Assembly: GCF_019703855.1 (NCBI RefSeq)
Contig: NZ_AP024086.1
Coordinates: 1,384,501 to 1,448,500, forward strand
Reading direction: 5' to 3'
Length of the DNA stretch: 64,000 bases
From: Desulfomarina profundi
Lineage (GTDB): Bacteria; Desulfobacterota; Desulfobulbia; Desulfobulbales; Desulfocapsaceae
Numbering within the stretch: the first letter of the stretch is position 1; each line of letters begins with the position of its first letter. Of this stretch, positions 10,838 through 42,185 are shown one piece after another. A program made the position numbers and the translations under genes. Under the pieces are notes generated by a model that ran no database searches, was not told where the DNA came from, and saw only the letters and a list, made by a program, of their open reading frames with translations.

Positions 10838-10846
10838 ACTATTTCC

Positions 10847-18911: not shown

Positions 18912-20265
18912 CTACTGTTGATCTGAAATACGTCTGTTTTTTCTTGGCGGCTCTTCATCTTTTCTGTCACTGAGTAGTCTTCCAAGTTGTTCAAGTGATT
19001 TCTGCAGCGTTGTCGTTTCATCAAAATTTTGTTTGAGAAAGTCATTCATGGCATCTATTTTACTGATGGCATAGTCGATTTTCGGGTTTGATCCTTTTGC
19101 ATAAGCTCCGATATTAATCAGGTCTTCCGCCTCAGCATAACTGGCCAGGACAGTCCGTGCCTTGCCGGCCAGTTCAAGATGACGTACAGAGATAATATCT
19201 CGCATGACCCTGCTTGCGGAATTGAGAACATCTATGGCGGGAAAGTGGTTTTTAGCGGCAAGACTCCTGGATAAAACGATATGGCCATCCAAAATCGAAC
19301 GAACGGAGTCCGCAACCGGTTCGGTCATATCGTCACCGTCCACCAGTACAGTATACAGACCAGTGATAGTACCTTTTTTTCTGAATCTCCCGGCACGCTC
19401 CAACAGCTTTGGGAGGGTTGCGAATACGGATGGTGTATATCCCTTTGTTGTGGGCGGTTCTCCAATTGCCAGGCCAATTTCCCTCATGGCCATGGCAAAA
19501 CGGGTGACGGAATCCATCATCAGCAGGACGTTTTTACCATTATTGCAGAAATATTCAGCAATGGCAGTTGCCACAAAAGCACCACGCATACGGAGAAGGG
19601 GAGATTGATCAGATGTGACAACAACAATGACCGACCTGGCAAGTCCGTCCTTTCCGAGATCTCTCTCGATGAATTCCCTTACTTCTCTACCGCGTTCGCC
19701 GATAAGGGCAATGACGTTAATATCTGCCTTGGCATATTTGGCCATCATACCGAGAAGTACGCTTTTTCCTATTCCGGAACCTGCCATTATCCCCATACGC
19801 TGACCCATGCCACAGGTTATCAGTCCATTGATTGCCCTGACTCCAAGATCAAGAGTTTCCGTTATATTCTGGCGTTCCATGGGCCCGGGGGGAGGGAATA
19901 GAGACTTTTTTCTTCGGTAAGGACCGGCGGAGGAAGATTGTCATGGGGATTTTCCATGGCATCGATGACCCTGCCGAGGAGATTACTGCCGACCTTGATG
20001 GTTGCACTGTTTCTGACTACCCTGATTAAACTGCCCGGGCCGAGTCCCCGCAAATCACCAAGGGCATAAGGAGTGCTTTGGAGTCCTTGAAACCGACGAT
20101 TTCTGCAAAAATATCTTCGCCGCCATCTATTGGGGTCAACCTGCAGAGGGAACCTATTGAAGCATGGGGACAGTGACCTTCAATGACCAGGCCGACAATG
20201 CGGGTTACTTTTCCCCACACCCTGATGAGATCAAGGTTTTGTATGTGTAATGTATTCAGTGGCAT
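18912..20265 (-). CDS. fliI: Flagellar export ATPase FliI, reading frame broken twice
   Basis: FliI is the F1-beta-like ATPase of flagellar export. Three consecutive frames are needed: 20265 to about 20059 (beta-barrel N-terminus), about 20059 to 19890 ([11 protein letters not shown]... LLGRVIDAM), and 19890 to 18912 (Walker [22 protein letters not shown], Walker [20 protein letters not shown]). Adding one C/G at 20058-20059 and one in the six-G run 19887-19892 restores a continuous frame of about 451 residues with the canonical [11 protein letters not shown] and [12 protein letters not shown] junctions. Both losses are in G/C runs. Sequencing error is more likely than true loss, because all partners of the complex are intact. 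Confidence 0.9.
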
Positions 20266-22150: not shown

Positions 22151-23780
22151 TTATCCTTCCTGTATCCAGTTTTTTACAATAAAAGCGGTCGGAACATGAT
22201 TTTGAAGTACTTCTCTTCTCAGGGTGGTTATCGCATCATCAACAGGAGGAAGAATTATCTCTTCCTCCTCTTTGTTTTCAAGAGCTTGCCGTTGCTCCTG
22301 TTCCAGCTGTTCAACGGTTTTATAGTGCTCTTTGACCTCTCCTTTCATAGTTTTTATGACAGGCCTTATAAGCAGGAAGTAGAGGAACAGGATTCCAAGC
22401 GATACCAGTCCGTACTTAATAAAAGGGAGATATTCATAGAGTGGATGAGTTCCAAGAGCGTTCTCTTCAATAATCGCCTTGTCTGTTTCAACAAAGGGCA
22501 TGGAGAGAACATTAATCATGTCCCCCCTTTCAGGGGTAAGTCCTATTGCCCTGGCTATCATGTTTTCTATTGATTTTAACTCTTCTTCAGTGCGGGGAGT
22601 AGTTGATACTGGTTTGCCGTCCTTATCAACCTTGACACGATCTGCAACAAGAACAGAAACCGATAGTTTCGTTATTGTTCCCACAGGATTCACGGTTTTA
22701 CTGATTGTTTTACTGATTTCATAGTTGGTGATTCTGGAATTTTTGCTTGAAGTCGGCCCTGCCTGATCACCCCGAGAGTGCCCCCGTTAAGGTTTGACTG
22801 TACTCCGGGAATCCCCCCGCATTGACACTTCCACTGTTCTCCTGGTTTATCTGTTCACTGCGGATAACCGGGTCATCTGCGTCATACAATTCCTGCGTTT
22901 TTTCATTCTTGGAAAAATCAAGGGAGGCGGTAACCCTGACCATGGCATGGTCTTTTCCCATGGTTTTATCAAGCAGGTCCTGGGCCCTCATTTCAAGTCG
23001 ATGTTCAAGTTCCTGCTGATAAGTGAGCATGTCAACAGGGAGGAGGTTATCTCTGTCTTTTTCCTTCAGGCTTTCAAGAATAACCCCGTTTGAATCGATG
23101 ATATTGACATTATCAGGTTCAAGACCAGTGACTGAACCGGCAACGAGATGGATAATACCCTGGACCTGTTTTTCATCAAGTTTCCTGCCAGGAACCAGGG
23201 TGATGATGACGGATGCTGTGGCTTTTTTCTGCTGGCTCTTAAAAAGTCTTTTCTCAGGAAGAGCCAGGTGTACACGTGTTGATTCCACGGGACCGAGAGA
23301 CGTAATCGTTCGGGACAGTTCTCCCTGCAGAGCCCTGGTGTGATTCACCTTCTGAACGAAATCAGTTAAGGCAAAACTCTGTTTGTCAAATATTTCAAAA
23401 CCGACTCCTTCGCCACTGGGTAAACCGTTGGCGGCGAGATCAAGTCTGGTCTGATAAATCTGGTCTGCAGAAATCCAGATATCACGACCGCCATGTTTCA
23501 GTGAATAGGGGATTTTTCTGGCTTTGAGCCAGCTTGTGACCGACGAGGCATCACTGATGGAAAGATTAGCATAAAGAAGCTGTTGATCCGCCGTTCTTGC
23601 CTGAAAGATCAATACTCCAAACAGGGCGATGGATATGAGAATAATCGCTCCAGTGGCAATTTTTCGTGATAAAGGCCATTGTTGAATCAATTTGAAAATA
23701 TTTTTTGATTCAGCCGCTTCCTGTGGAAGGTTTTCGATCTGTTCTGAAGTTTCAGGAATTTTCTGTTCTTCTGCCGCCAT
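22151..23780 (-). CDS. fliF: Flagellar MS-ring protein FliF, reading frame broken twice
   Basis: FliF builds the MS ring. The N-terminal part 23780-22820 has the first membrane helix (about residues 38-62) and ring-building motifs. The C-terminal part, read from about 22770 to 22151, holds NYEISKTISKTVNPVGTI, the second membrane helix and the FliG-binding tail. The middle frame reads GGIPGVQSNLNGGTLG. Two extra G/C bases, one in the six-C run 22813-22818 and one in the four-C run 22770-22773, give one frame of about 543 residues, a normal length. As for fliI, sequencing loss is the likelier cause. Confidence 0.9.
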
Positions 23781-25295: not shown

Positions 25296-27719
25296 TTATT
25301 GCAGGCCGACTTGCAGCCCTGATGCCGTCTTTTCAAATTCCAGGGCTTTTCGGGCAAAATCTCTCCATCTATTGTTAGTGCCTTTTTCGGCAATTTTTCT
25401 GAATAATCTTAGCGCTTTTTTTTCATTTCCCTTTCGTCTTTCCAATTCTGCCAGATGAAAAAGGCTTTGGTCATAGAATGGGTTTGTTGCTTTTATTTTA
25501 AGAAAAACAGATTCTGCCCTGTCATATTGTTCAGTTTTCATCAGACTTTCACCCAACATAACCAGTTCTTCCTGGCTGAGTTGGTAGTCTAACTTTTCCA
25601 GAGACTCGAAAACTTCTGCACATTTTTTAAAATCATCTGTTCTGTAATAAATGGTGGCCGCAAGCTTATAAAAATCCTTTTTTTTCGGAAGGGGACTCGG
25701 GAGGAGGCGTAGAGCTTCGGTAAACCGTTCCTGATTGATAAATGCCTTCAGGCGGAGCAGAAGAATGTCTTCCGTATATTTGCCGTGGGGATAATTGAAT
25801 GTGTATTGGGCAGCGAAATCCTCCACAAGAGTATAATTACCATGATTGAAAGAGGCCCTGACGAGAGGAAGAAAGAATTGCTCCCTTTGATCAACTTCTG
25901 AAATCTCAATGAGATACAGATAAAGCCTCTGGGCTTCCTCATAAACGCCGATTTCATCATAGGCCTTCGCAATATCCACGAGATACCTGCTGTCCAGCCA
26001 GTTTTTCCTGAAGAGTTCCTTGTTCTGTTTGGCAAGAACAAGTGCCTTTAAATATTGTTTTTTCTCCACAAGCCTTTTTATTTCACCCGGCAACAGGTCA
26101 ATGAGCAGTGCCTGGGCTGATGAAAGTACATGTCCGTATCTGAATTCCCTGGTAAGTTGTTGTAAAAGTGCTATTGATTCACCTTTTCTGTTTAAAAGAG
26201 ACAGAACCAGGGCTTGTTTAAAGAGGGCTTCTTCCTTCGGTTCTCTGGCAATAGCTTTTTCATAAATTGATGAATAACTTTTGAGAGCCCAGTCCAGGGC
26301 CGAACTTTTCTGAAGCAGCAGAAGGTCTGTTTTTTTTATTGCAGCCCTGTTACCGGCTTCTGTTCCGGGAAATGCATTTTCAATCTGGGTAAATCCGTCT
26401 ATCAGTTTTTCCCCCGGCATGAATTTAAGCCTGGACATGTCTGCACGGTAACGGATCATACCAAGGGAATTTTTATTGAGTACCAGTGTCGACAGTTGAT
26501 CGTAGCAACTGCTGCTTTTAATAAATTTCTTTTGACTGTACAGAGTTGCACAGTTGCCGTTCAGGGAATAGGGCTGCTTTACAAGATGTTCGGAATCTGC
26601 AACAAGTCGATATGCGGCATAAGCTTTTACAGGTTGATTAATTCCATACCAGTAATCTGCCTGCCGGATTTCCCTGACTTCTTCAATGGAAGGAGGAAAG
26701 GCAATATCATCTTGAAGAAGAAGGCTGTTCATTGCAGAAAATTTTGAAGATGCAAGTGAGGTTTCTATCCGTGAAAGATGAAGATAAGGTGCCAGCGGAT
26801 TGGATTGACTTATGTTTTCTGCAAGAGCAGTCATTTCAAATTCTGCTATATGTGGATCCTCATGGATTGCCCGCAGCAACAGGAGAACATATTTTGCAAA
26901 ACTACCAATAAGCTCATCCCTGTATTTTTCCTGGAGGAGGTAAAGTTGTTTATAGGCACCGACAAAATTATCAGCCCTGAAGAGGACCTCACCATAACAG
27001 AGGGCTAATTTTTTTTGTGTCTCAACATTTTTTTCTGACTTGAGTTGTTCAAGAATCCTGGTGGCAAGATGCTCCCACAACCCCTCATCGGCAAGTTTGA
27101 ACAGCTCCGGGGAAAGGAGTTGCAGGTTTTTTTCCTTATCGGGTGGCAGCATTCCGATGATCGGAAAAGGCGGGAGGGTGAAAGTTACAGGTATACTGAT
27201 TGACACTGGAGATTCATATCTGGCAAAAAACGTCATCCAGTTCTTGACATAAGGGGAAAATATATACGGATTTGTATAATCAACCCTGCTCCTGTCAATA
27301 ACAGTCAACCCTTCCAGTTTTTTTGCAAGATTTTGATAAGACTTTGAATATTTGTTTCCGGGGAGAATTTCAACAACGATCTTATCGTCGTCATTTCTGG
27401 ATACAGTGTAGTGCTGTGGGGTATATCGGAAAAAAAGAGAAAGTATAAAATTACCATTTTCCATCCGAGACAAAATTTTGACTATTTTGTCGTCTGGCTT
27501 GAAAAAAGTAATTTTTTTCTTAAGCTCTGTTTGGTTGAATATAAGATTCAGACGCCTCTCATTAATTGTTTTAGAAAATGTTGGGGCTTTATCAAAAAGA
27601 AAATAAAGCTGTATCATATCACCGGATTCCGCCCGGGAAACCCGAAGCAGCTCCGAAGCGGAAGCAGGTGTTCCGGCAATGAGAACAGCAAAAATGATAT
27701 ATGAAAATAATTTCTTCAT
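25296..27719 (-). CDS. Secreted TPR-repeat protein at the head of the flagellar locus
   Basis: The 807-residue product has a clear signal peptide (about residues 1-21, ending ASA-S), a beta-rich N-terminal part (about 22-130) that reads a little like an AMIN-type domain, and then many TPR-like helical repeats to the end (for example LGESLMKTEQYDRAESVFLK and LAELERRKGNEKKALRLFRK). I do not recognise a named family. It is transcribed with flgB and comes first after a sigma-54-type promoter, which suggests a periplasmic or outer-membrane role in assembling or anchoring the flagellum. No catalytic motif is visible. Confidence 0.8.
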   Translation of the reverse strand: MKKLFSYIIFAVLIAGTPASASELLRVSRAESGDMIQLYFLFDKAPTFSKTINERRLNLIFNQTELKKKITFFKPDDKIVKILSRMENGNFILSLFFRYTPQHYTVSRNDDDKIVVEILPGNKYSKSYQNLAKKLEGLTVIDRSRVDYTNPYIFSPYVKNWMTFFARYESPVSISIPVTFTLPPFPIIGMLPPDKEKNLQLLSPELFKLADEGLWEHLATRILEQLKSEKNVETQKKLALCYGEVLFRADNFVGAYKQLYLLQEKYRDELIGSFAKYVLLLLRAIHEDPHIAEFEMTALAENISQSNPLAPYLHLSRIETSLASSKFSAMNSLLLQDDIAFPPSIEEVREIRQADYWYGINQPVKAYAAYRLVADSEHLVKQPYSLNGNCATLYSQKKFIKSSSCYDQLSTLVLNKNSLGMIRYRADMSRLKFMPGEKLIDGFTQIENAFPGTEAGNRAAIKKTDLLLLQKSSALDWALKSYSSIYEKAIAREPKEEALFKQALVLSLLNRKGESIALLQQLTREFRYGHVLSSAQALLIDLLPGEIKRLVEKKQYLKALVLAKQNKELFRKNWLDSRYLVDIAKAYDEIGVYEEAQRLYLYLIEISEVDQREQFFLPLVRASFNHGNYTLVEDFAAQYTFNYPHGKYTEDILLLRLKAFINQERFTEALRLLPSPLPKKKDFYKLAATIYYRTDDFKKCAEVFESLEKLDYQLSQEELVMLGESLMKTEQYDRAESVFLKIKATNPFYDQSLFHLAELERRKGNEKKALRLFRKIAEKGTNNRWRDFARKALEFEKTASGLQVGLQ

Positions 27720-28188: not shown

Positions 28189-28560
28189 ATGGGAAAGAAT
28201 GTACTGCTGGTTGATGATTCAAGTACAATGAGAAAAATTATCGGTCGGTCACTGCGACAGGCAGGGATTGAGTTTGACAATATATTTGAGGCCGCTGATG
28301 GGCTTGAGGCCCTGGAAGTATTGGAAAAAGAAAATGTTGATATTGTCCTCAGTGATATCAACATGCCCAATATGGATGGAATTTCCTTCCTGAGGGAGAA
28401 ATCCACGAGGGATGGCATCAAAGATATACCTGTTTTAATGATATCAACTGAAACAGGTGATGATATTATCGGAGAAGCCAAGTCTCTTGGTGCCGTCGGA
28501 GCTATAAAAAAGCCCTTCACACCTGACAAAGTAAACGAAGTTCTTGGTCCTTTACTTTAA
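28189..28560 (+). CDS. cheY: CheY-like single-domain response regulator
   Basis: This 123-residue receiver domain has the acidic pocket D9-D10, phospho-acceptor D56 in VLSDINMP, the S/T at 86-87 and the KP pair at 108-109, so it should be phosphorylated and able to bind the FliM switch. AGGAG precedes the ATG. It is the first gene of a plus-strand group with two CheX-like phosphatases, which would remove the phosphate. The histidine kinase is probably the CheA encoded at 39.2-42.2 kb. Confidence 0.92.
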   Translation: MGKNVLLVDDSSTMRKIIGRSLRQAGIEFDNIFEAADGLEALEVLEKENVDIVLSDINMPNMDGISFLREKSTRDGIKDIPVLMISTETGDDIIGEAKSLGAVGAIKKPFTPDKVNEVLGPLL

Positions 28561-28586
28561 TTTTATTGGTGCAAAAGGGGGTGGCA

Positions 28587-29042
28587 GTGGATATCAGTAA
28601 AAACATGATTGACTCGGCAAAAGAAATTTTTTCCACGATGGTCATGATGGAGATTGAAGTGGCTGGAGATCTGTTAAAAGAGACTGCCCCTCTCTCTGAT
28701 TCTATTTCGGGAGTTATTGGGCTGGTCGGAACCCACAAAGGTGTTCTGGCCATCCACTTGCCCCAGAATGTTGCAATGGCTGTTACTGGAAGCTTTCTTG
28801 GCATGGATGTTGAAGAAGTGAATGAAGACGTGGAAGACGCCGTTGGAGAACTTGCCAATATGCTAGCCGGAGACGTTAAAACAGCGCTCGCTGCAAACGG
28901 TAGAGATATTGATATTTCTCTGCCGACAATTATTGCAGGGCGTGAATATGATTTCCAGCCGACCGGAGAAACAGAAAGGATTATAATTCCTTTCGGCTGC
29001 AGTGCAGGCAATTTTTCCGTTGAACTGCAGTTGGAACGATAA
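28587..29042 (+). CDS. cheX: CheX-like CheY-P phosphatase, first copy
   Basis: A 151-residue CheX-type domain. The catalytic signature ExxN is present as GELANMLAG with E88 and N91, the pair that in CheX/CheC positions water on CheY-P. I choose the GTG at 28587, which follows a GGGGG stretch by 5 bases; a TTG at 28566 would add 7 residues. It follows cheY by 26 bases and is homologous to the next gene, so a tandem duplication is likely. Confidence 0.85.
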   Translation: MDISKNMIDSAKEIFSTMVMMEIEVAGDLLKETAPLSDSISGVIGLVGTHKGVLAIHLPQNVAMAVTGSFLGMDVEEVNEDVEDAVGELANMLAGDVKTALAANGRDIDISLPTIIAGREYDFQPTGETERIIIPFGCSAGNFSVELQLER

Positions 29043-29089: not shown

Positions 29090-29554
29090 ATGGCTGGCGA
29101 ATTCAATATTGGTGAAGAAATAATTGCCGGGATAAAAGAAGTATTTTCGACCATGCTCATGGTCGATCTGCAGGCTGAAGAGGTCATAGAAAATGGAGAA
29201 TGTGAAATCTCCTCTAATCTCACAAGCATGATAGGTCTTGGCGGAGGAATCCGGGGAATGCTGGCTATCCACTGTCCTGCTGATGTTGCTCGTGGAATTA
29301 CCAGTGGTTTGCTGGGAATGGAAATTCAAGAGCTTGACGAGGATGTAAAAGATGCTGTTGGTGAAGTCGCAAATATGGTTGCCGGTAATTTAAAGGTTTC
29401 TTATGCGAAAAATGGTATCGACATAGAGTTAGCTATTCCTACTTCCATTGTTGGTGATTCCTTTGCTGTGAGCGGTATGGCCGATGCTCATCGCGTCGTT
29501 GCTGTTATGAAAGCACCGGAAGGGCCCCTGTGGATTGAACTGCTGTTTATCTGA
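29090..29554 (+). CDS. CheX-like CheY-P phosphatase, second copy
   Basis: The 154-residue protein is a paralogue of the preceding gene: same length, same GExANMxAG signature (E92, N95), and a shared IKEVFSTMLMVDL start. It should be another CheX-type phosphatase or a binding-only version. The ATG at 29090 lies 47 bases after its neighbour. The differing surface sequences suggest the two copies may act on different partners. Confidence 0.83.
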   Translation: MAGEFNIGEEIIAGIKEVFSTMLMVDLQAEEVIENGECEISSNLTSMIGLGGGIRGMLAIHCPADVARGITSGLLGMEIQELDEDVKDAVGEVANMVAGNLKVSYAKNGIDIELAIPTSIVGDSFAVSGMADAHRVVAVMKAPEGPLWIELLFI

Positions 29555-29935: not shown

Positions 29936-32383
29936 ATGGATCCCATAAAGCGAATTGATAAAATCCTTGAAGCCATTCAGATACGTGTACAGGATGAAGT
30001 TGCCTCTCTGCTTGGTGTTGATTTTCTCCTTGAAGATATTGAAAAGCAACCTGCGACCAAGGAGGAAGTTTTTGATTCCCTGGTTGGAAAACAGATCTGT
30101 GCAAAAATGGAACTGGTGGGTGAAGTGGAGGGGGATGGTGCCCTGCTCATGGGTATCAAAGATGCCATCAGGTTGGGGGGTACTCTTATCATGCTCCCCG
30201 CCTCCGAACTTGATGAGGTCATCAGTAGAGAGGAATACAGTGAGGAAATAGAAGATTCATACGGTGAAATAGCAAATATAATTGCCGGTTCATTCACAAA
30301 GGATTTTGAGGAAATGTACCCGAAATCCTTTCGTTTTGTGAGAAAAGAGCAGGAGAAACTCGTACCGGTGAAAGTGGATATCCAATCCGATGAACCTGTT
30401 AAAAATGAGATTTTTTACCAGGTCGCTTTTCCCATGATTCTTGACGGAACCCCGATGGGTAAGATGGTTATGCTCATGCCGGCCGCATCTTTCGGGTTGC
30501 ACTGGGAGGATAAGGAGGTTTCTGTAGTTGATACTGATCCTGTGGAGCAGAACAGTGCGGGGGAACAGAAAAATGACGAAGAAATTGAAACCGAAAGTGA
30601 GACCAAAGAATCAGCTGAGACCCTTAAACCGAATTTTAATGTAGAAAAGCATAAAAAAAGGATAGACAGGCTGCTTACGGTCTGCCAGGAAAAGATGTCA
30701 TCCGAGCTTGGTGCGCTGCTTGGTGTGGAAATCACTTTGTCGGATCTGGATAACAGCTTTGTCAGCAAGGAGGATTTCTTTTTCGATCATGCATCAGGAA
30801 AACAGGTTCTCGCAGATATGGATGTTGTTGGAGAACTGGAGGACAGAAGTTTTTTTTCAATCAGTCTCAAAGATGCGATATACCTCGGTGGACTCCTGAT
30901 TATGCTGCCACCTTCTGAACTGGAGAGTGTTGTAAGTGAGGAAGAATTTGGTGAGGAAGCACAGGACGCCTATGGGGAAGTCGCCAATATCGTGTCGGGA
31001 GTCTATACCTCAGTATTTGAGGAGCAGTACACAAAAAATCTCAGGTTTATCAGAAAGGGGCTTCAGCAGGTTGTGCCGATGAAGGTAGACCCGCAGTCGG
31101 ATGAGCCGGTACCTGATGTGCCATATTATCTGAGCTCAATGACCCTGAATATTGAAGGAAAAAGCTATGGAAAAGTTCATATGCTTTTTCCCGTAGATAT
31201 GTTGCAGTTGTCAACTTTTGGCCAGACGCAGGATCAGGTCGTTGAAGGAGTAAAACCGGAAATAACTCCGGAAAATGAGAACAGGGAAGCGTCACCGGCC
31301 CCCCAGGAAAAAAAAGCTGATTTCAATATTGAGAGGCACAGGAAAAGAGTAGACAAACTCCTTGGTCTCTGCCAGGAAAAAATGGCAGACGAAGTAGGGG
31401 CTCTTCTTGGTGTTGATGTTCAGTTGCTGGATCAGGAAAATAGAATTGTCAGCAAAGAAGATTTCTTTTTCGAGGAAGTTTCCGGAAAACAGGTTATTGC
31501 CGACATGGAAGTGGTGGGAGAGATAGAGGATAAATCCTATCTTGTTATTTCCCAGAAAGATGCGATTCGTATTGGCGGAACCCTTATTATGCTTCCTGAA
31601 AATGAACTTCAATCCAGTATTGAAGATGGCGATTTCAGTGAAGATATTGAGGATTCTTATGGCGAGATTGCCAATATCATTTCCGGAGTTTACACCGCAG
31701 TTTTTGAGGAGGGTTATACTCGACAGATACGATTCATTAAACAGGAACTCCGCCAGGTCCTTCCCATGAAAGTCGATCCTGAATCTGAAGAACCTTTTCC
31801 TGATCAGGAATACTATGTCAGCAGCATGAAACTTGTTCTCGCCGGGAACGAAGCTGGAAAAGTACATATGGTATTTCCATCAACAATGCTGCAGCTTGAT
31901 GGCCTTGGAGCAAAAGAGCAAGAAAAGGAAACTGGAACTGAACCCTCAGGACCTTCCGTTTCTCCAGGATCAGGTGGTAAAAACGGTAGAGTTGCAGTGG
32001 CGGCAGACGATGGAAGGAGGCCGGTTGATATTCTCCTCATAGGCGATGATATGGCAGAGATAGAGAAATTACAGAATGTTCTCAGCAAAAGAGGATTTGA
32101 AATCCGTATATTGTCTTTTAAGGACGAGGTACATAATTATATCCCCGGCGAATTGAAAGCGGTTTATCTTGTGATGCAGGAAATTAATGAGCAGGGGTTT
32201 GGTGTGGCAATAAAAGTAAGCAGTTCATGTTCCCTGCCACTGATCGCAGCAGCCCCCGGCTGGACAAAAACAAAGGTCATCAAGGCTGTAAAATATGGAA
32301 TACGGGATATTCTTCTTACCCCTGCCACTACAGAAGATATCGAGGAGAACATAAGCAACAACCTGCTGAAAATGGCAGCTTGA
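29936..32383 (+). CDS. Three tandem CheX-like domains fused to a degenerate receiver
   Basis: The 815-residue protein has three homologous units of about 195 residues (about 1-190, 233-430, 462-660), each with the CheC/CheX signature GE[IV]ANI: E111/N114, E348/N351 and E577/N580. Each unit begins with a KRIDK-LL helix and has a GKQ..A.M..VGE.E block and a LGG.LIMLP motif. Acidic linkers join them. The C-terminus (about 694-815) has the CheY fold pattern: an acid pair in ILLIGDD, but the phospho-acceptor position in YLVMQE has no Asp and the Lys is replaced (TPATTED). It is therefore a pseudo-receiver. Function is unknown; a multivalent phosphatase or CheY-P sink is an inference. Confidence 0.8.
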   Translation: MDPIKRIDKILEAIQIRVQDEVASLLGVDFLLEDIEKQPATKEEVFDSLVGKQICAKMELVGEVEGDGALLMGIKDAIRLGGTLIMLPASELDEVISREEYSEEIEDSYGEIANIIAGSFTKDFEEMYPKSFRFVRKEQEKLVPVKVDIQSDEPVKNEIFYQVAFPMILDGTPMGKMVMLMPAASFGLHWEDKEVSVVDTDPVEQNSAGEQKNDEEIETESETKESAETLKPNFNVEKHKKRIDRLLTVCQEKMSSELGALLGVEITLSDLDNSFVSKEDFFFDHASGKQVLADMDVVGELEDRSFFSISLKDAIYLGGLLIMLPPSELESVVSEEEFGEEAQDAYGEVANIVSGVYTSVFEEQYTKNLRFIRKGLQQVVPMKVDPQSDEPVPDVPYYLSSMTLNIEGKSYGKVHMLFPVDMLQLSTFGQTQDQVVEGVKPEITPENENREASPAPQEKKADFNIERHRKRVDKLLGLCQEKMADEVGALLGVDVQLLDQENRIVSKEDFFFEEVSGKQVIADMEVVGEIEDKSYLVISQKDAIRIGGTLIMLPENELQSSIEDGDFSEDIEDSYGEIANIISGVYTAVFEEGYTRQIRFIKQELRQVLPMKVDPESEEPFPDQEYYVSSMKLVLAGNEAGKVHMVFPSTMLQLDGLGAKEQEKETGTEPSGPSVSPGSGGKNGRVAVAADDGRRPVDILLIGDDMAEIEKLQNVLSKRGFEIRILSFKDEVHNYIPGELKAVYLVMQEINEQGFGVAIKVSSSCSLPLIAAAPGWTKTKVIKAVKYGIRDILLTPATTEDIEENISNNLLKMAA

Positions 32384-32448: not shown

Positions 32449-33519
32449 TCAGTTTTCTTCCCACAGCCCGTTGATTTTCTTTTTCTTGATTTTTTCCAGC
32501 AGAGTAGTTCGTTTCAGATTGAGCAGGCGGGCTGCTTCTTTTTTGTTTCCATCTGTTTTTTTCATGGCCTGCACAATAAGTTGAGTTTCAAAATCATTGA
32601 TCAATTCCTTGAAATTGACTTGACCTTCTTCCCAGTCCAGTTGCGTGAGGATCGTTTTTTCACTGTCCTGGTTTTCAGCTGCAGCTGAAGGAGCTGGAGA
32701 TTCGGATGTACATGCTTTTTGCTCAGGTATTTTGACTGAATGGAATTTTTCAGGAAGATCGGTAAGGTTGACTTCCTTCCCGCTGAAAAGAATACTCATA
32801 TGTTGGACAAGATTTTCCAGTTCCCGGACATTCCCCCTCCATTCATAATAAATGAGGGATTCAATTGCCTCCCTGGAAAAGGTGAATTTTTCTCTGCCAC
32901 GTTTGAGCGTATACGTTTCAATAAAGGAATTAACCAGTAGGGGAATATCTTCAGTTCTGTCCTTCAGTGAAGGAATATTGACTGGTATGACGCTGAGACG
33001 GTAATAGAGGTCTTCTCTGAATTTTCCTTCACTGACAAGTTGTTCGAGATCACAATGAGTGGCTGCAAGGATACGGGTATCGATGGGAATAGCCTTGAAG
33101 GCTCCGACAGGTTCGAATTCTTTTTCCTGCAGTACGCGTAACAGTTTTGCCTGCAGGGAAGCTTTCATGTCTCCAATTTCATCAAGAAAAAGAGTACCCT
33201 GGTCTGCGTATTGTATTCTTCCCGGTTTATTGGTGTTCGCCCCGGTGAAGGCACCTTTGGTGTACCCGAAAAGTTCACTTTCCAGGAGGTCATCTGGAAT
33301 AGCTGCACAGTTTACCGGAACAAAATTTCTGTCTTTTCTTTTCGACTGGGCATGAATTGCCTTGGCGACCATCTCTTTGCCGGTACCGGATTCGCCTCTG
33401 ATGAGAACGGTTGAGTAATCATCTTCAGCAATTTTTGTTATCAGCTCAAAGAGATTCCGCATGGGATCACTGGCTCCTATCATGCCGTGGAATGCGGATT
33501 TTGAAGATTCTTCTGTCAC
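32449..33519 (-). CDS. Sigma-54 dependent AAA+ activator, probably flagellar (FlrC/FleQ-like)
   Basis: The 356-residue protein has no receiver or sensor domain: the AAA+ module starts almost at once, with Walker A GESGTGKE at 42-49, the sigma-54 contact motif GAFTGA at 89-94, and a Walker [10 protein letters not shown]. The C-terminus is a Fis-type helix-turn-helix with [20 protein letters not shown]. It may be controlled by binding of FlhG or of an unlinked kinase. With the two sigma-54-type flagellar promoters in this window, it is the best candidate for the class-II activator. Confidence 0.82.
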
Positions 33520-34261: not shown

Positions 34262-34792
34262 ATGAATCTTAAACTGCTATCGCACATTTTTACAGTTTTT
34301 CTTATTATCTGCGGTACGGATATATGTTTTGCATCACCTTTTATAGCGAAAGTGTCAAGGATAATTGACGGTGATTCAATTGTTGTTTTAAGAGATCAGG
34401 AAAAAATTGAAGTACGTTTGTATGGTATAGACTCCCCTGAGTGGAGGCAAACTTTTTCCAGAGAGGCACGTTCATGCCTCTTTCGGGCAGTTTATGAAAA
34501 GAACGTAATGGTTTTTCCTCAATATTATGATTCCTACGGGAGACTGGTTGCCCATATTGAGCGAGACGGGGAAAATATCAATGGTTATCTGGTTGAACAC
34601 GGATGTGCCTGGGTTTACCCCCATTTCTGCAGACAGAAAATATGCGATAGATGGTATAAAAAACAGAAAAAGGCAAAACAGGAACATGAGGGGTTGTGGC
34701 AGGAAGAAAAACCTGTTTCTCCCTGGATCTGGAAAAGGATGAAAAAAAAGAAAAACGGGACAGTTTTTTCTGGCTGGTTGAAAGGAAAATAA
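34262..34792 (+). CDS. Secreted staphylococcal-nuclease-like (SNase) protein
   Basis: The 176-residue product has a signal peptide (about residues 1-25) and an SNase domain. The catalytic-type residues are present: R and E in VRLYGIDSPEW and R in YGRLVAHIE. It should hydrolyse nucleic acids outside the cytoplasm or be a structural relative. It is upstream of the pentapeptide-repeat gene, but a link between the two is not evident. Confidence 0.85.
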   Translation: MNLKLLSHIFTVFLIICGTDICFASPFIAKVSRIIDGDSIVVLRDQEKIEVRLYGIDSPEWRQTFSREARSCLFRAVYEKNVMVFPQYYDSYGRLVAHIERDGENINGYLVEHGCAWVYPHFCRQKICDRWYKKQKKAKQEHEGLWQEEKPVSPWIWKRMKKKKNGTVFSGWLKGK

Positions 34793-34827
34793 TCACAGTA
34801 CCGTCACGGGTTAAGGGAGGTGTAAAA

Positions 34828-35880
34828 ATGAGGTTGGGACTTTGCGTGTTGTTGTCTGCAGTTATTTCCACAGTGGTTTTTTCAGGGAAAATATCGAGTG
34901 GAGCTGAAAGTGTAACTTCTCATGAGAATCTGCAAAAATTAATTAAAACCAATAGCTGCAAAGGCTGCGATCTTTCAGGGGTAAACCTCAACAGGATTGA
35001 TCTTTCCCATGCTGATCTTGAGGGAGCAAACCTTGAACAGGCCAAACTGTATCTGACTGATCTTTCTTCGGCCAATCTTCGTAATGCAAATCTAAAAGGA
35101 GTGGTTTTCGGTGGTACCGATCTGGGTGGTGCTGATCTGAGAGGTGCCGATTTAAGGGGAGCAGTTCTTGACGGCGCGTATCTTGGTGGTGCTTTTCTTG
35201 ATGGAATGATGGTCACCACTCAGTTGTCCGGGAATTCAGACCTTACCGGAATTGAGCAGGAAGTCTATATAGAAGATCCTGGAAAACCCAAAAAGAAACC
35301 TGTTAAAAATGAGGTGGTAGTGGGGAAGAGAAGAGTTTTTCGGGAACCTCCTCCAGTACTGAAAAAAACGGAGATTACAAAACTCGAGGAAACCTATCCA
35401 AAGCCACCGAAAATAAAAAAGGCTCACATGCCTGGGAAAATCAATCTTGGAATAAAGATTGAAAATACAGTGAGGGAAAACAACAATTCCCAAAACGAAG
35501 AATACCTTGGCCAAACAGGAGAAAAAAAGGAAAACATCATTTTAAGTAAAGAAAAAATGAAGGTACTGCAGAAATTTCTGGATACCGGCCGCTGCTACGG
35601 ATGCAATCTTTCCGGGATTGATTTTTCCGGGAAAGACCTGGAAGATTCGGATCTGGAAAAAGCAGATCTGACCGGGTGCAGTTTTGCAGGAGCGGATCTG
35701 GAAGGGGCAAATCTCAAAGGTGCAGTACTGATCCGTGCCAATCTGAGGAAAGCTGACTTAAGAGATGCTGATATGTACAAAGCGGATTTAACCGGAGCCA
35801 ATTTGACTGGTACCCGTATGGAAGGGGCACTTCTGGATGGTGCTGTCCTGCCGGATTCTATTGGAATCCTGAATCCGTGA
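34828..35880 (+). CDS. Periplasmic pentapeptide-repeat protein with two CxxC arrays
   Basis: I place the start at the ATG at 34828, which follows GGAGGTG; the open frame extends further upstream without a ribosome site. The 350 residues have a signal peptide, then two pentapeptide-repeat blocks (A[D/N]LXX units, about residues 45-120 and 250-345), each introduced by a cysteine pair: CKGCDLSGVNL and CYGCNLSGIDF. A lysine- and proline-rich linker (about 140-240) joins them. The two C-x-x-C motifs may be redox or metal sites; function is unknown. Confidence 0.85.
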   Translation: MRLGLCVLLSAVISTVVFSGKISSGAESVTSHENLQKLIKTNSCKGCDLSGVNLNRIDLSHADLEGANLEQAKLYLTDLSSANLRNANLKGVVFGGTDLGGADLRGADLRGAVLDGAYLGGAFLDGMMVTTQLSGNSDLTGIEQEVYIEDPGKPKKKPVKNEVVVGKRRVFREPPPVLKKTEITKLEETYPKPPKIKKAHMPGKINLGIKIENTVRENNNSQNEEYLGQTGEKKENIILSKEKMKVLQKFLDTGRCYGCNLSGIDFSGKDLEDSDLEKADLTGCSFAGADLEGANLKGAVLIRANLRKADLRDADMYKADLTGANLTGTRMEGALLDGAVLPDSIGILNP

Positions 35881-35922: not shown

Positions 35923-36495
35923 TCATTGAATTTCTGCCAGTGTATCAAGAGCTTTGACTATCCTGGTATCGTCAAGAAGACTTTCATCTCTCAGGATATT
36001 TTCTATAGTATCAAGTTGTTCCTGCAATGCGGCAACCTGAAGCTCGAGATTCTGAATTGTAACTGAGGCTTCTGTCTCCGTAGTATTCATCGCGTGTTCA
36101 AGATCCCTGGCACTTTCCAGGATGGACTGCAGGTTCGCGATTTTATTGAGTCGGAGAAAAAGCTCATCAAAATTGATCGGTTTTTCCAGATAATCTACGG
36201 CTCCTTTTTTCATTGCCTCAACTGCGGTATCCACAGATGAATGTGCCGTAATAAGCACTACTTCCGTTTTATTGCTTATTTCTTTTGCAATTTCGAGTAC
36301 CTCAATGCCTCCGATATCACCGGGCATCATCAGGTCGGTTAGAACGACATCAAAAAAACGGGTCCTCATGAATTTTTCTGCAACATAACCATCTTCTGCA
36401 ACAACTACTTCATGATTTTCCTTTGCCAACCGTTGCTCAAGAAGACGCCGTATAACAGGATCATCGTCAACGACAAGGATGGATAAGTTTTTCAT
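35923..36495 (-). CDS. Response regulator with coiled-coil C-terminus
   Basis: The 190-residue protein has an N-terminal receiver domain (about residues 1-120; acid residues D10-D12, phospho-acceptor D54 in VLTDLMMPG, K in LEKP) and a C-terminal coiled coil (about 125-185) with no DNA-binding or enzymatic motif. It is the last gene of the cheA-cheW-cheB-cheR unit, so CheA is its likely kinase. The output is unknown. Confidence 0.88.
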   Translation of the reverse strand: MKNLSILVVDDDPVIRRLLEQRLAKENHEVVVAEDGYVAEKFMRTRFFDVVLTDLMMPGDIGGIEVLEIAKEISNKTEVVLITAHSSVDTAVEAMKKGAVDYLEKPINFDELFLRLNKIANLQSILESARDLEHAMNTTETEASVTIQNLELQVAALQEQLDTIENILRDESLLDDTRIVKALDTLAEIQ

Positions 36496-36511
36496 AATAT
36501 GATCCCTCAGT

Positions 36512-37348
36512 TTATTTCTTTTGATAAAATATTGTTCTCAGGTGTCTTTTGGGGACAAAACGGGGGCAGACACCTGTAAGTGATTCTGTTGAACCTATAA
36601 TGAGGAATCCGTCATCTGCCAGGACATCAGCAATTTTGTTGAATAATTTTTTACGGTCCTCCAATGTGAAATAAATGGCAACATTTCGGCAGAAAATGAT
36701 ATCAAATTTTCCAAGCGCATTGAAAGGCAACATAAGGTTCAGTTTGCGGAAATTGACCATTGCCCGTATTTCATCTTTAATTTTCCAGGTATCCCCAAAG
36801 AGTGTAAAGTACTTTTGCAGAAATTTTCGATCCAGTCCTCTTTCAATTTCAAATTTATTGTATTTTCCAATGCTTGCCTGGGCAATAGCCGTATTGGAAA
36901 TATCAGTTCCCAGGAGTTTTACAGAATAATTGGGAGCATCGCCAATAAGTTCTTTGATGATGATGGCAATGGAATACAGTTCCTGGCCAGTGGAAGCGGC
37001 AGCACTCCAAATTTTTATGGGAATTCTGAGTCTGCCTGATTTTTCTGATCTGCGATCAATTATTTCGGGCAGCAGTTTGTGCTGGAGCAGGTCAAAAGGG
37101 CCTTTGTCCCGGAAGAACAGGGTTTCATTTGTCGATATGGCATCAATGATTTCCCGTTCGATTTTTTTGCCGGCATCGCGTTTGGCTTTCTGGTACAGTT
37201 CCTTGTAAGAGCTACATCCGTGAGCTTCAGCAATGGAACTCAATCGGGTTTCAAAAAGATATGATTTGCTCTTATCAAGATATATTCCTGAGATGTCATG
37301 GATATATTTTGATATAAGCTGCAGTTCTTCGGGGGTGATTTTAATCAT
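36512..37348 (-). CDS. cheR: Chemoreceptor methyltransferase CheR
   Basis: CheR methylates glutamates of chemoreceptors using SAM. The 278-residue protein has the N-terminal helical domain (about residues 1-70) and the Rossmann domain with IWSAAASTGQELYSIAI and the FDIIFCRNVAIYF motif. It follows cheB after about 100 bases. No receptor gene lies in the window. Confidence 0.93.
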   Translation of the reverse strand: MIKITPEELQLISKYIHDISGIYLDKSKSYLFETRLSSIAEAHGCSSYKELYQKAKRDAGKKIEREIIDAISTNETLFFRDKGPFDLLQHKLLPEIIDRRSEKSGRLRIPIKIWSAAASTGQELYSIAIIIKELIGDAPNYSVKLLGTDISNTAIAQASIGKYNKFEIERGLDRKFLQKYFTLFGDTWKIKDEIRAMVNFRKLNLMLPFNALGKFDIIFCRNVAIYFTLEDRKKLFNKIADVLADDGFLIIGSTESLTGVCPRFVPKRHLRTIFYQKK

Positions 37349-37447
37349 TTTATTTTGAAACCGATTTGTGGAACATTGTAAATCTTATTGGTTTTGTTGT
37401 CTGTCGTATTCCTGGACAAAGCAGGGAGAACCAGGTTCAAAGGGTAG

Positions 37448-38554
37448 CTATTTTTTTACACTTTTGACAATTTCCTCGGCAATCTTGTTCAGTGGAACAA
37501 CAGTGTCAATATATCCAAGTTCAGCAGGTGTCTTAGGCATTCCGTAAACAACACAACTGGCTTCATCCTGTCCTATGATATAAGCGGCTTTGTCTCTGAG
37601 GACAGCAAGTCCTTTAGTGCCATCAGAGCCCATGCCTGTCATTATTACCGCCGTTGTTCTTCCGACGTAATAGTCGCCGACGGAACGGAAGAGGTAGTCA
37701 ACAGAGGGTTTGCATGAGTTTTCCGGTGGGTCATTGGTGAGTTTTATTCTGCGGTTCTGCCCGTCAAGTCCCGCAACCAGTTTCATCTGTTTTCCACCGG
37801 GAGCTATATATACAACATTTGGGAGTATGTTTTCACCATCTTCTGCCTCTTTTACATGAAGAGCACATTTTTTATCAAGGCTGTTGGCAAGAGATTTTGT
37901 AAAAACCGGAGGCATATGCTGCACAATAAGAACGGGAACACCAAGGTCTCCAGGGAGTTGAGGCAGCATTTGGGAAAGGGCATTGGGTCCCCCGGTTGAA
38001 ATTCCGATAGTGACAATTTCCGATTTACTTTTCCCGGCAGTTTTTTTCCGGTTCAATGAAGTAAATTTTCTTGGAGGCACCTTGGTTACCGAAGGACGCG
38101 CTGTTCCTGTAGTTTTACCTCGTAATGCAGGTACTCCTCTGGACTGGGCAAAGGCCTTGAGCATGGGTTGAAGGAGTTGTTTTATCGCTTTTTTTCCTTC
38201 AGCCTGCCCTTTGGTCTGTGGTTTGAGAATAAAATCGAATGCTCCAAGTTCCAGCGCTTTCATGGTCATGTCACTGCCTTCAGCAGTGAGTGTAGAGAGC
38301 ATTATCGCCCCGATTTTCGGGTATTTTGCGCGTAGTTCCTGGAGAACTTCAAGTCCATTCATAACCGGCATTTCAATATCAAGGGTCAGGATATCCGGCT
38401 GAAGTGTTTTTATTTTGGCGAGCGCGATTTTTCCGTTATGCGCTACTCCAGCCAGTTCCACACCGGGAATTTCTTCAATGACATCAGATATTGCCTTACG
38501 GTAGACAATGGTATCATCCACCACAAGAACTGATAATTTCTTCATTCCTATCAT
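37448..38554 (-). CDS. cheB: Chemotaxis methylesterase CheB
   Basis: CheB removes receptor methyl groups and is activated by phosphorylation. The 368-residue protein has a receiver domain (about residues 5-130, phospho-acceptor in ILTLDIEMPVMNG), a linker and the methylesterase domain with Ser in GISTGGPNAL, His in VQHMPPVFT and Asp in MGSDGTKGL. It lies between cheW and cheR. Confidence 0.95.
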   Translation of the reverse strand: MIGMKKLSVLVVDDTIVYRKAISDVIEEIPGVELAGVAHNGKIALAKIKTLQPDILTLDIEMPVMNGLEVLQELRAKYPKIGAIMLSTLTAEGSDMTMKALELGAFDFILKPQTKGQAEGKKAIKQLLQPMLKAFAQSRGVPALRGKTTGTARPSVTKVPPRKFTSLNRKKTAGKSKSEIVTIGISTGGPNALSQMLPQLPGDLGVPVLIVQHMPPVFTKSLANSLDKKCALHVKEAEDGENILPNVVYIAPGGKQMKLVAGLDGQNRRIKLTNDPPENSCKPSVDYLFRSVGDYYVGRTTAVIMTGMGSDGTKGLAVLRDKAAYIIGQDEASCVVYGMPKTPAELGYIDTVVPLNKIAEEIVKSVKK

Positions 38555-38608
38555 AATTATTTATTCTTTATCTCTATTTCAGGGCTGGCCAGGTTTTGGT
38601 TCCAGGTG

Positions 38609-39064
38609 TTAATCATCAATACTCAAAACCTTGTCGACATTTAAAATACCAATAAGATTATTTTCGGTCTTGTAGACACCGGTAAAAAATTCTCCCTGGA
38701 TCCCACGCATATTTGCAGGAGCAGGCTCCCGGCGCTCCATATCAGCTTCAACGACATCGCTGATTTTTTTTACAAGCAGACCGACATGGCCACCGGAAGA
38801 ATTGACAATAATATTTCTCGGATCCTGGGTGATATCGGTTTCTCCAAGACCCAGCTTTTTCCCAAGGTCAATTATGGTTACAATCTGCCCGCGAAGATTC
38901 AGGATGCCGAGAACATATTCCGGAGCCTGGGGAACCTTTGTCATCTGCATGAGCTTGTTTATTTCCTGAACTTTCAGAATATCCATGCCACAAAGGGCAT
39001 CACCGACATAAAACGTCGCCAGTTCAACTATATTTTTACTGCTTGCCTGTTGCTGATCTGTCAT
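38609..39064 (-). CDS. cheW: Chemotaxis coupling protein CheW
   Basis: CheW couples CheA to receptors. The 151-residue single-domain protein has the conserved NLRGQIVTIIDLGKKLGL and GILNVDKVL motifs. It follows cheA after about 190 bases that contain a perfect 12-bp inverted repeat, and precedes cheB by 54 bases. Confidence 0.95.
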   Translation of the reverse strand: MTDQQQASSKNIVELATFYVGDALCGMDILKVQEINKLMQMTKVPQAPEYVLGILNLRGQIVTIIDLGKKLGLGETDITQDPRNIIVNSSGGHVGLLVKKISDVVEADMERREPAPANMRGIQGEFFTGVYKTENNLIGILNVDKVLSIDD

Positions 39065-39175
39065 AATTACACCATTGAGTTTTGCCAGTACCTATCCGAA
39101 AACTGCATTTTCAGACGGATACGTGTTAAGCTTTTGAATCAAGAATATGGTTTTATTCTTTTCCTGCATTTTTTA

Positions 39176-39203
39176 TCAGTTCAGGTGGCGTCACCTGAAC
39201 TGA
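39176..39203 (-). promoter_or_regulatory. Perfect 12-bp inverted repeat between cheA and cheW
   Basis: TCAGTTCAGGTG (39176-39187) and CACCTGAACTGA (39192-39203) pair perfectly around a four-base loop. On the minus strand it follows the cheA stop by about 50 bases, with only an A-rich stretch and no U-tract after it. It could be a weak terminator or an mRNA-stabilising hairpin that lowers cheW-cheB-cheR expression relative to cheA. Confidence 0.5.
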
Positions 39204-39252
39204 CCATGGGTGAACTTCTCAAAATTGATACAGTGTTCATGAGAAATGCGCG

Positions 39253-42170
39253 TTAGTGTATCTTCTTCATATAATCATGGACCGACACCATCAACCGTTC
39301 CTTGTCGAGTTTTATATGATATTCGTTTACACCTACTGATTTTCCCATTTCAATATCTTCTGCTGAGGCCAGGGTCGTCAGTGCGATTATGGGTAGATCC
39401 TTGAACTGTTCACTGGCCCTGATTCTCTGGGTGAGTTCAAAACCATTCATATTGGGCATTTCTATGTCGGTTACCAGCATCGAAATCTTGTCTCCATTTT
39501 CCTGGAGCAGGTTCCATGCTTCCATACCGTCCTCGCCTTCAATGACGTTGTAACCCACTTCGGTCATATACCCCTTAACCTGATTCCTGAAAAATTTTGA
39601 ATCTTCTGCAATCAGTATTGTTGGGGGTTCTCCCTCTTCAATCGCTTCAAAATCAAAAGTTTCCTGCTCTTCGAACCATTGAGGGAAGAGGGTCTGAACC
39701 ATTTCAAATACATTGACAAGCATTGTTGTCTGCTGGTCTATGATTGTTGACCCCATGATGCCCGTCTGGCTCAAGGTAGTGTCATCAATATCGGCTGCAA
39801 TTTCAAGGGCATCAATTGGGCCGATGGCAAGAAGACCAACGGCTCTCTTTGCGATATTGAAGACTATTACCAGCAGGTTTTCATGATCAGCGAGCGGCTG
39901 GACCATGGCAACATCGTCCACACAGATAAGACTGAGACTGCCTCCCCTGTATTTCATAACACGTTTGCCGCCCAGATCTTCAATGTCGGACCGTTTGATT
40001 TTTTCAATTCGCTCAACCTGGTTGAGAGGTACACCAAACTGTTCTTCCTCCGAACTCTTGAAAATAAGAAGAGACTGTTTATCTTTCTTCGCCTTTATGG
40101 CCTCCTCAGCAGCCTGGGCAACTTCAGCCGCCCTGTCTGAACCGTCAAGTGAGGTCAGATTTGCCATCCTTGCCAGGTTGCTCACATCAAGAATCAGAGC
40201 AATCCGCCCATCTCCCATAATGGTGGCTCCAGCATAGCCCTTGCATTGCTGCAGGTGTCTGCCAAGTGGTTTGATAACAATTTCCTCGGAATCCTGGAGC
40301 CGGTCCACAATGAGGCCATATTTCATGGCTCCGGTTGAAACTACAACGATATTCAGTGCGCTGGAAGCAGAGAACCTTCTGTCAAGGACTGATCGCACAG
40401 CAGAGCCGTCTTTCTGGGATTCTCTTTTTTGGACATCATTTTCAGTGTTGAACAGAGGAGAGTTCCTACCCCTTCTGTCACTGATCTGTTCCCGTCTGTC
40501 CGGTTTGGCTTCGTTGCTTTCCGGATCATAATAAGTACGTTGAATTCCAATGACATCTGCAAGCCGTATTAACGGGAGAAGGTTCCCACGTAATCTTACG
40601 ACTTCCGCGTCACCCACTCTTTCAACACGTTCTTTCACCTGGCCTGCCGGAATACGCAGCAATTCTTCCAGATTAACCTGGGGGATTGCATACCTCTCAC
40701 CTCCTGTTTCAATGATCTGGCAGGGGATAATGGCAAGAGTCAGTGGCAGTTTAATGGAAATGGTAGTTCCGACACCGATTTCAGAAATAATGTCAACGTG
40801 ACCACCCAATTGATCAAGATTGGTTTTGACCACGTCCATACCGACACCTCGGCCGGAGACATCTGTCACCTCTTTAGCTGTGGAAAAACCGGGAAGGAAA
40901 ATGAGATTGATCTTTTCCTTTTCGGACATGGCCTGAATCTGTTCTGCTGTGAGCAGGCCCTTGTTGACTGCACTGTTGGCCAGAGCATCACCATCCAGAC
41001 CTTTACCATCATCACTGATCTCTATTACGACCTGACCGGCTTCATGATAGGCTTTGAGAATAACCAGGCCTGTCTCGGATTTGCCACTTTTCTTCCTCTC
41101 GTCCGGCATTTCAATCCCATGGTCAACAGAGTTTCTGACGAGGTGGGTGAGAGGATCATTAATGGCCTCGATGATTGTTTTATCCAGCTCTACATCTTTA
41201 CCTACAATGGTAAGATCAATGGATTTACCAAGTTTTTTTGAAAGATCCCTGACGACCCTGGGAAATTTATTAAAGACATTACCAATCGGCTGCATCCTGG
41301 TCAGCATGATTGCTTCCTGCAGTTCAGACGTTATCAGGTCAATCCGTTGTCCGACGGTTTCAGCATTACGCAGATCATCTGAACCAATGGTTTGAAGGAG
41401 CTGGTTTCTACTGAGTACCAACTCTCCAGCCAGGTTCATGAGAGAATCAAGCAGACTGACATGAACCCTGAGAGATGTCTCAGCCTTGCTTGGTTTAGAG
41501 GATCCTCCCGTTGCAGGGGGGGAGTCTGTGGTTTCTGTGCCGGTTTGGGCTTTGGCTGTTGAACTGGAGGGGTCGGTTTTTCCTGAACCGGCTCTGGTAC
41601 TTCCTCGGGTTCTTCCTGTGTTTCTGCCTGTGCCACGGGTTCTTCGGAATCAGCATTATCCGGTGCTGCTTCCTTATCAATTTCCTCGGGTTCTTCCTTT
41701 GCTTGTTCCTGTGGCTCTTCCGAAACAGTATTTTCTGGTTCTTCTGTTTCTGCACTTTCTTCAGCCGTTGGTGGCTGAGAAAAAGATCCATCGGCAATGG
41801 CGTTCAATGGAGTAAGGTGTGAAGATATATCCACTTCGTTACTGTTATGAACGTCTTCGATCATACTTTGCAGTTGATCTGATGCAATGAGGAGGACATT
41901 AATTATTTCAGGAGTGGGTATCAGTTTTTTACTGCGTATCATACCCAGAACATTTTCTGTTGCATGGGACAACTCCTGGATTGTGGTGAGTCCCATGAAA
42001 CCGGCACCTCCCTTAATGGAGTGTGCTGCTCTGAAAACCTTGTTTACCAGATCCTCATCAATATTGGCTCCCGCTTCTTCAATGGCGAGAAGGTCATTTT
42101 CGATGTCTGCGAGATGCTCGAGTGATTCCTCAATAAATCCTTGCAATATTTCGTCGTCTTCAATTTCCAT
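39253..42170 (-). CDS. cheA: Chemotaxis kinase CheA with receiver domain, frameshifted
   Basis: CheA is the histidine kinase of chemotaxis. The first part (42170 to about 41520) has the HPt domain with the phospho-histidine in AAHSIKGGAGFMGL and a long acidic, proline-rich linker. The second part (41520 to 39253) has dimerisation, HATPase, two CheW-like domains and a C-terminal receiver with phospho-acceptor Asp in LVTDIEMPNMNG. The first CheW-like domain carries a charged insert of about 60 residues. One extra G/C in the seven-base run at 41516-41522 makes one frame of about 972 residues, with KPSKAETSLRVHVSLLDS at the junction. Start at 42170 is preferred because GGAG precedes it. Confidence 0.9.
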
Positions 42171-42185
42171 AGCCTGCTCCATGCA

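Follow-up and report, generated by a model that had tools for sequence, protein, structure and literature searches.

The locus and its neighbours

The window, a stretch of 64,000 nucleotides from Desulfomarina profundi, contains an open reading frame for a protein of 815 residues that lies among motor and chemotaxis genes. The features of the locus are listed below.

10463 to 11830, reverse strand: FliN (FliMN_C domain only) and FliM
25296 to 27719, reverse strand: TPR protein, on the opposite side of the locus
28189 to 28560, forward strand: CheY (Response_reg, E 6.4e-26), the presumed substrate
28566 to 29042, forward strand: free CheX 1, ExxN within GELANMLAG (Pfam CheX, 85.5 bits)
29090 to 29554, forward strand: free CheX 2, ExxN within GEVANMVAG (Pfam CheX, 80.1 bits)
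29936 to 32383, forward strand: single ORF of 815 residues, three predicted CheC/FliY-fold domains and a C-terminal pseudo-receiver
32449 to 33519, reverse strand: sigma-54 activator, convergent; its close relatives carry an N-terminal receiver-like region that is missing here
35923 to 42182, reverse strand: response regulator, CheR, CheB, CheW, CheA (39253 to 41439) and Hpt (41436 to 42182)

A sequence-only reading had placed the long frame directly after a cheY-cheX-cheX cassette. The gene order was borne out; the spacing is looser than that wording implied, with 381 bases between 29554 and 29936 and no ORF of at least 80 residues wholly inside them. The motor of the window has a FliN that by Pfam consists of FliMN_C alone, without a CheC domain, and no CheZ was found in the window's genome at E ≤ 0.01. 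The FliM N-terminus in this genome reads EEIARLL, which resembles the EIDALL motif. A pentapeptide-repeat protein (34696 to 35880, E 5.8e-48) adjoins the locus, and several relatives show matches to it at the corresponding position. The frames of fliI (18912 to 20179), fliF (22151 to 23780) and cheA (39253 to 42182) are shorter or split when compared with relatives, which suggests indel errors in the one-contig assembly, or decay. Unlike these, the 815-residue ORF is intact.

The locus table covers 120 genomes, of which 107 belong to the order and 13 do not; ten order genomes (G067, G088, G091, G095, G098, G106, G133, G172, G178 and G180) were left out of it. Compared gene by gene, the gene lay mostly between a sigma-54 activator and a TPR protein, among the matches listed. 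A neighbouring CheY was found at 60 loci (median identity 89%, after removal of hits below 60%). The sigma-54 activator was convergent at 102 of the 120 loci; the 18 without a sigma-54 neighbour may comprise contig ends as well as true absences, and include all six one-domain loci of families f39 and f115.

This convergence, together with the receiver-like N-terminal region present in relatives of the window's activator, could indicate that the protein dephosphorylates the sigma-54 flagellar activator and thereby controls flagellar gene expression. Such neighbour regulation is very improbable: the region in question is missing in the window, the activators of family f12 are mostly short (356 to 401 residues, stop to stop) beside proteins that keep ExxN, and convergent genes are not necessarily partners. 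Just 82 bases separate the window's activator (32449 to 33519) from the next gene.

The repeats are predicted to adopt a CheC/FliY/FliM-middle fold

Structure prediction divided the protein into the following parts, all on the forward strand.

29942 to 30493: CheC/FliY-fold domain 1 (residues 3 to 186), predicted; pLDDT block means 82 to 95
30266 to 30277: ExxN of domain 1 (E111, N114)
30641 to 31192: CheC/FliY-fold domain 2 (residues 236 to 419), predicted; 59% identity with domain 3
30977 to 30988: ExxN of domain 2 (E348, N351)
31328 to 31879: CheC/FliY-fold domain 3 (residues 465 to 648), predicted; pLDDT block means 95 to 98 in the second model
31664 to 31675: ExxN of domain 3 (E577, N580)
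32024 to 32380: pseudo-receiver (residues 697 to 815), from predicted fold and alignment
32180 to 32182: codon of Glu749, at the phospho-acceptor position of the pseudo-receiver

The boundaries that had been proposed from sequence (residues 1 to 190, 233 to 430, 462 to 660 and 694 to 815) match these domains closely. Confidence in the first model was high for the repeats (block means mostly 80 to 95) and lower for the tail (42 to 80), and low-confidence linkers separated the domains at residues 192 to 233, 427 to 462 and 659 to 694. A second model, of repeat 3 and the tail, was predicted from 117 alignment rows and reached a mean pLDDT of 91 (repeat 95 to 98; tail mostly 95 to 98, falling to 85 and 57 at its end). 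No fixed docking of the pseudo-receiver on the repeat was predicted in this second model (linker pLDDT below 50, pTM 0.62).

Three tandem copies of a CheC/CheX-type domain, each with its ExxN pair, had been described by the sequence-only reading, and this description stands: the repeats share 45 to 59% identity by BLASTP within a set of 7 sequences (E 4.6e-49 for repeats 1 and 2, 3.1e-54 for 1 and 3, 2.5e-93 for 2 and 3), ExxN is present in all three, and the predicted folds place the repeats inside the CheC/CheX/FliY family and the tail among receivers. The narrower label, CheX-like, holds in part. Pfam CheX (PF13690) matched the full 815 residues at 52.1 bits (cut-off 27, E 6.9e-14), while the single repeats scored 24.7, 19.1 and 18.5 bits; since each alone falls under the cut-off, we regard them as divergent members. 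They showed short stretches of weak similarity to the free CheX proteins of the cassette (E 8e-5 to 1e-2 in the set of 7). A profile search of the PDB gave CheC as the best solved-structure match, weakly (E 0.13). The top Foldseek match of both models was Thermotoga maritima FliY (4hyn_A, E 7.4e-9 and 1.4e-12), with the FliM middle domain and CheC ranking next and CheX lower (1squ_B, E 3.6e-7). CheX was not among the best 50 VIA-align rows of either model, a list filled by receivers and uninformative by itself. A plain CheX triplication was considered and set aside as too narrow, the repeats of about 190 residues being better fitted by FliY, FliM-middle and CheC. As modelled, the repeats are CheC/FliY/FliM-middle-fold domains that retain the phosphatase motif. 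CheC, CheX and FliY hydrolyse CheY-P through this ExxN pair.

The fold comparison also raises the possibility of a structural accessory of the C-ring, in which the domains resembling FliM-middle would serve to brace the rotor or make it wider, with phosphatase activity playing a small part. The FliM middle domain was the top VIA-align match, at Z 21.2 and 20.7 in models 1 and 2 (for 4gc8_B in the first model, rmsd 2.2 over 166 aligned residues); FliY scored 18.7 and 19.8 and CheC 17.2 and 17.1. With rows within 1 Z unit treated as tied, FliY lies 2.5 lower in model 1 and is level in model 2. We nevertheless consider a C-ring part fairly unlikely. ExxN, which FliM lacks, was intact in 230 of 241 family domains from 118 genomes (one of the 241 was unreadable), and its loss accompanies loss of the cassette, as described below. 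The Glu did not vary across the 117 rows of the alignment A4, nor did the Glu or the Asn across the 54 rows of A3. Pfam found no FliMN_C (SPOA) domain in the 815-residue protein at E ≤ 1, and for want of SPOA the repeats are not FliY either. Long disordered linkers and a domain number that varies from one to three among complete ORFs likewise sit poorly with a structural ring component.

The tail is a predicted pseudo-receiver with a conserved alpha4-beta5 region

The tail had been read as a CheY-like domain that has lost its phospho-acceptor Asp and its Lys. A receiver fold was indeed predicted, with Glu749 and Thr795 at those positions. The predicted models of the tail aligned with the listed receivers at Z 14.5 to 16.9 and rmsd 2.1 to 3.3 Å, among them the CpaE-type receiver 4dn6_B (Z 16.0). 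Pfam Response_reg did not match the tail at E ≤ 1, and matches to NCBIfam response-regulator profiles were weak (E 0.005). A Pfam ENCP4 match to residues 707 to 757 (16.3 bits against a cut-off of 31.4) and a Foldseek match to succinyl-CoA synthetase (ranks 49 and 50, TM 0.11 by query) were taken as chance.

Residues were counted in A4, which takes in those 117 genomes of the table, the window's own among them, whose last domain is complete (a different set from the 117 family-positive genomes of the order given below). The phospho-acceptor position held E in 60 rows, D in 27, N in 9, S in 6, Q in 5, R in 4, T in 4, A in 1 and V in 1. The conserved receiver Lys was present in 6 of the 117 rows, and the strand-4 Thr/Ser position was G in 94, A in 20 and S in 3. 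Judged from these residues, the pseudo-receiver presumably cannot undergo ordinary phosphorylation. Invariant positions were I297, P306, W314, T315, A322, G326, I330 and P334 (A4 numbering; add 462 for the protein). Conservation was highest in the beta4-alpha4 loop, alpha4 and beta5 (mean entropy 0.7 to 1.2 bits), followed by beta4 and alpha3 (1.2 to 1.3 bits); alpha1 (2.8 bits) and alpha5 (2.3 bits) were variable. Receivers often bind partners by their alpha4-beta5-alpha5 side; in the tail, alpha5 lies outside the conserved alpha4-beta5 region.

A prevalence of Glu, then Asp, at the phospho-acceptor position would suit a multivalent phosphatase, or a sink for CheY-P, that is free in the cytoplasm and not bound to the motor, its pseudo-receiver serving for dimerisation or cis-regulation, for example with Glu749 as a phospho-mimic in the ExxN site; free CheX is itself cytoplasmic. 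We judge this explanation unlikely. A conserved mimic should not vary through nine residue types, cis-autoinhibition by the pseudo-receiver was unsupported by the second model, in which no cis docking appears, and the pseudo-receiver survives at two loci (L055 and L056) in which no CheX domain is recognised.

Distribution of the family

By profile search, 117 of the 257 genomes in the order carry the family, in most cases at a single flagellar locus; it was present in 31 of 58 relatives, the window's genome included. Its carriers are sulfate reducers from among the relatives of Desulfopila. A phylum sample of 395 genomes, drawn evenly, yielded 23 positives, 16 of them outside the order. Both the CheX-type part and the tail were found in 13 of these 16; G282, G452 and G570 (family f41) matched weakly and in the CheX part only (E 7e-17 to 7e-13). 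Searching genome contigs returned four loci, from a MAG labelled Desulfopila aestuarii, Desulforhopalus sp. IMCC35007, a Desulforhopalus MAG and a Desulfocapsaceae MAG. A viral origin was unsupported, a scan of viral contigs having found no relative. Within the window's family, 66 of the 68 genomes that matched FlhA at E ≤ 1e-20 encode the protein, as do 9 of the 25 that did not; the two FlhA genomes that lack it are 63% and 70% complete.

Among 110 complete ORFs, the number of CheX-type domains was none in 2, one in 13, two in 76 and three in 19 (in one three-domain ORF, L115 of G151, the first domain is merely a fragment). The earlier impression that this arrangement is unlike standard chemotaxis proteins agrees with the finding of no described ortholog among the open-access matches listed; what appeared singular in the window is, however, a regular family form with one to three domains.

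ExxN loss accompanies loss of the cheY-cheX cassette

The cassette was scored as present where a cheY hit of at least 60% identity or a cheX BLAST match at E ≤ 1e-8 lay in the 2.5 kb upstream in the same orientation, and as absent only where 2.5 kb of DNA was readable. Its state could be called at 100 of the 120 loci, being present at 88 and absent at 12. Loss of ExxN from at least one domain, or of the whole domain, was seen at 8 of the 12 loci without the cassette and at 1 of the 88 with it (Fisher 2.3e-8, kinship ignored). A broader reduced class (at most one domain, or ExxN lost) comprised 11 of the 12 and 8 of the 88, respectively (Fisher 5.9e-9, kinship ignored). Kinship among the loci inflates both values. 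On a tree of 102 sigma-54 neighbours, 83 of them with both traits, built by a quick method, the cassette changes at least 6 times. A kinship-aware test on five independent supported pairs was not significant (median p 0.125 for both reduced and lost); on average 4.5 pairs (reduced) and 3.5 pairs (lost) went the expected way and none the opposite way.

Seven of the 8 reduced loci with a cassette encode one-domain proteins with ExxN intact, and six of those seven come from two families outside the order. Since these six one-domain relatives have both the cassette and an intact ExxN, domain number does not simply follow chemotaxis. At L045, L046, L051, L053 and L058 the protein is retained on contiguous DNA without cassette or che operon, which excludes assembly gaps at these five loci. 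The five belong to several lineages that have kept flagellar genes while the che operon and cheY-cheX-cheX are gone.

The CheA dimerisation domain was not found in 11 of the 12 cassette-free genomes, and G030 gave one partial hit (E 1.6e-6). Persistence of the protein where CheA was not detected is a point in favour of the C-ring accessory. Four genomes (G003, G005, G006 and G008) have no cassette and no CheA found, yet carry ExxN in every domain, which speaks against the phosphatase reading proposed below; there the motif may serve something else, or the loss of the cassette may be recent. Conversely, G078, G115 and G148, which are 68 to 85% complete, have the cassette and full ExxN with no CheA hit. 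In the locus table, the label CheA- covers unsearched genomes at G451, G493, G551 and G622, and the label CheA+ of G030 reflects its partial hit; the statistics used the cassette.

The tail persists beside rotor genes

FlhA and FliP gave no match in seven family-positive genomes of two genera (g10 and g12). The tail could be read in five of the seven, at L051, L052, L055, L056 and L162 (G178 and G180 were left out). By Pfam, L051 has FliF, FliG, MotA, MotB, FliL, FliM and FliN, and L055 has FliF, FliG, FliM and FliN; at L056, FliM and FliN were found by Pfam and FliG by BLAST, and the gene content of L052 was judged by BLAST alone. ExxN has decayed in L051, L052 and one domain of L162, and the pseudo-receiver is still present in L055 and L056, in which no CheX domain was recognised. 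The last two loci would fit the C-ring accessory as well. With rotor genes beside it in genomes where FlhA and FliP gave no match, and with ExxN decayed or no CheX domain recognised, the tail appears linked to the rotor more closely than to the export apparatus, the filament or chemotaxis.

In the genomes concerned (G017, G031, G015 and G030 for L051, L052, L055 and L056), FliG and FliM, and in part FliF, FliN, MotA, MotB and FliL, form contiguous clusters in which the export apparatus was not found (L051, 13175 to 19900; L052, 2 to 6261; L055, 10706 to 14994; L056, 6462 to 8582). FlhA and FliP were likewise not found in G178 to G180, which belong to the same genera.

A proposed phosphatase array at the motor

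From the directly established anatomy, predicted folds, ExxN conservation, locus and cheY-cheX association, we infer catalysis, CheY as its substrate, docking at the motor and a division of labour with free CheX. We propose that the protein is a flexible CheY-P phosphatase array, held at the rotor by its pseudo-receiver and doing the job of FliY in a FliN-type, CheZ-free motor, and put the probability of this reading at about 0.45, a little short of even. Two or three CheC/FliY-fold domains (one in some lineages) on disordered linkers would hydrolyse CheY-P at their ExxN sites, and the pseudo-receiver would act as the docking module through its conserved alpha4-beta5 region. CheY-P reaching FliM would meet several catalytic sites on flexible arms, so that the motor itself would be the place where the signal is quenched; the pair of free CheX proteins would work in the cytoplasm. 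The array would thereby fill the place of FliY where FliN has no CheC domain and the genome no detectable CheZ.

The phosphatase part of this proposal is well supported by inference; tethering to the motor is hypothesised from gene location and co-retention. Of the two roles suggested by the sequence-only reading, the multivalent phosphatase gains indirect support because ExxN is conserved and decays where the cheY-cheX genes are lost, and the motor scaffold gains it for the pseudo-receiver only.

It is also possible, though on balance doubtful, that the pseudo-receiver is an unrecognised rotor accessory subunit of the Desulfobacterota to which phosphatase domains have been added, or from which they have been removed, as chemotaxis was elaborated or lost. 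If this were true, evolution could turn the valency of CheY-P quenching on the motor side up or down like a dial, and the subunit would survive the loss of chemotaxis and of the flagellar export apparatus alike. Motor-side removal of CheY-P is known for bacteria with CheZ and for those with FliY. The family may supply the motor-side phosphatase that is otherwise missing from the window's genome, and forms a natural series of 0, 1, 2 and 3 domains. It may also mark an unknown rotor component, given its continued presence next to rotor genes in genomes where no export genes were found.

Comparison with known systems

Among the matches listed from the open-access literature, no description of tandem CheX or CheC domains joined to a receiver was found; subscription works, such as a review of CheC-type phosphatases, lie outside that scope. 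The tail has its fold in common with the CpaE-type receiver 4dn6 (CpaE lacks a phospho-acceptor) and with other receivers, which accompany other partner domains; peculiar to the tail are the invariant W-T pair and the conservation of alpha4-beta5. The FliM middle domain is the closest match of the repeats by VIA-align; FliM, whose N-terminus binds CheY, differs in having a FliMN_C domain. CheX (of T. maritima, of Borrelia burgdorferi and of the cassette itself) resembles the array in the Pfam match of the whole protein and in one ExxN per domain, but is a free protein of about 150 residues, whereas the repeats are fused and of about 190. T. maritima CheC shares the fold and an ExxN in a long helix; it has two active half-sites, where each repeat has one ExxN.

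Part of an account of Desulfocapsa sulfexigens names two CheC proteins (03066 and 03067) and two response regulators (03064 and 03068) and leaves 03065 unnamed (PMC3739170); by tag order, 03065 could be a candidate array protein. The closest fold by Foldseek is that of FliY, the motor-located CheY-P phosphatase of T. maritima and Bacillus subtilis, described in part of one account as a phosphatase domain of the CheC-type family joined to a SPOA domain (PMC6946799). The array differs from FliY in having three tandem domains and, in place of SPOA (FliMN_C), a pseudo-receiver.
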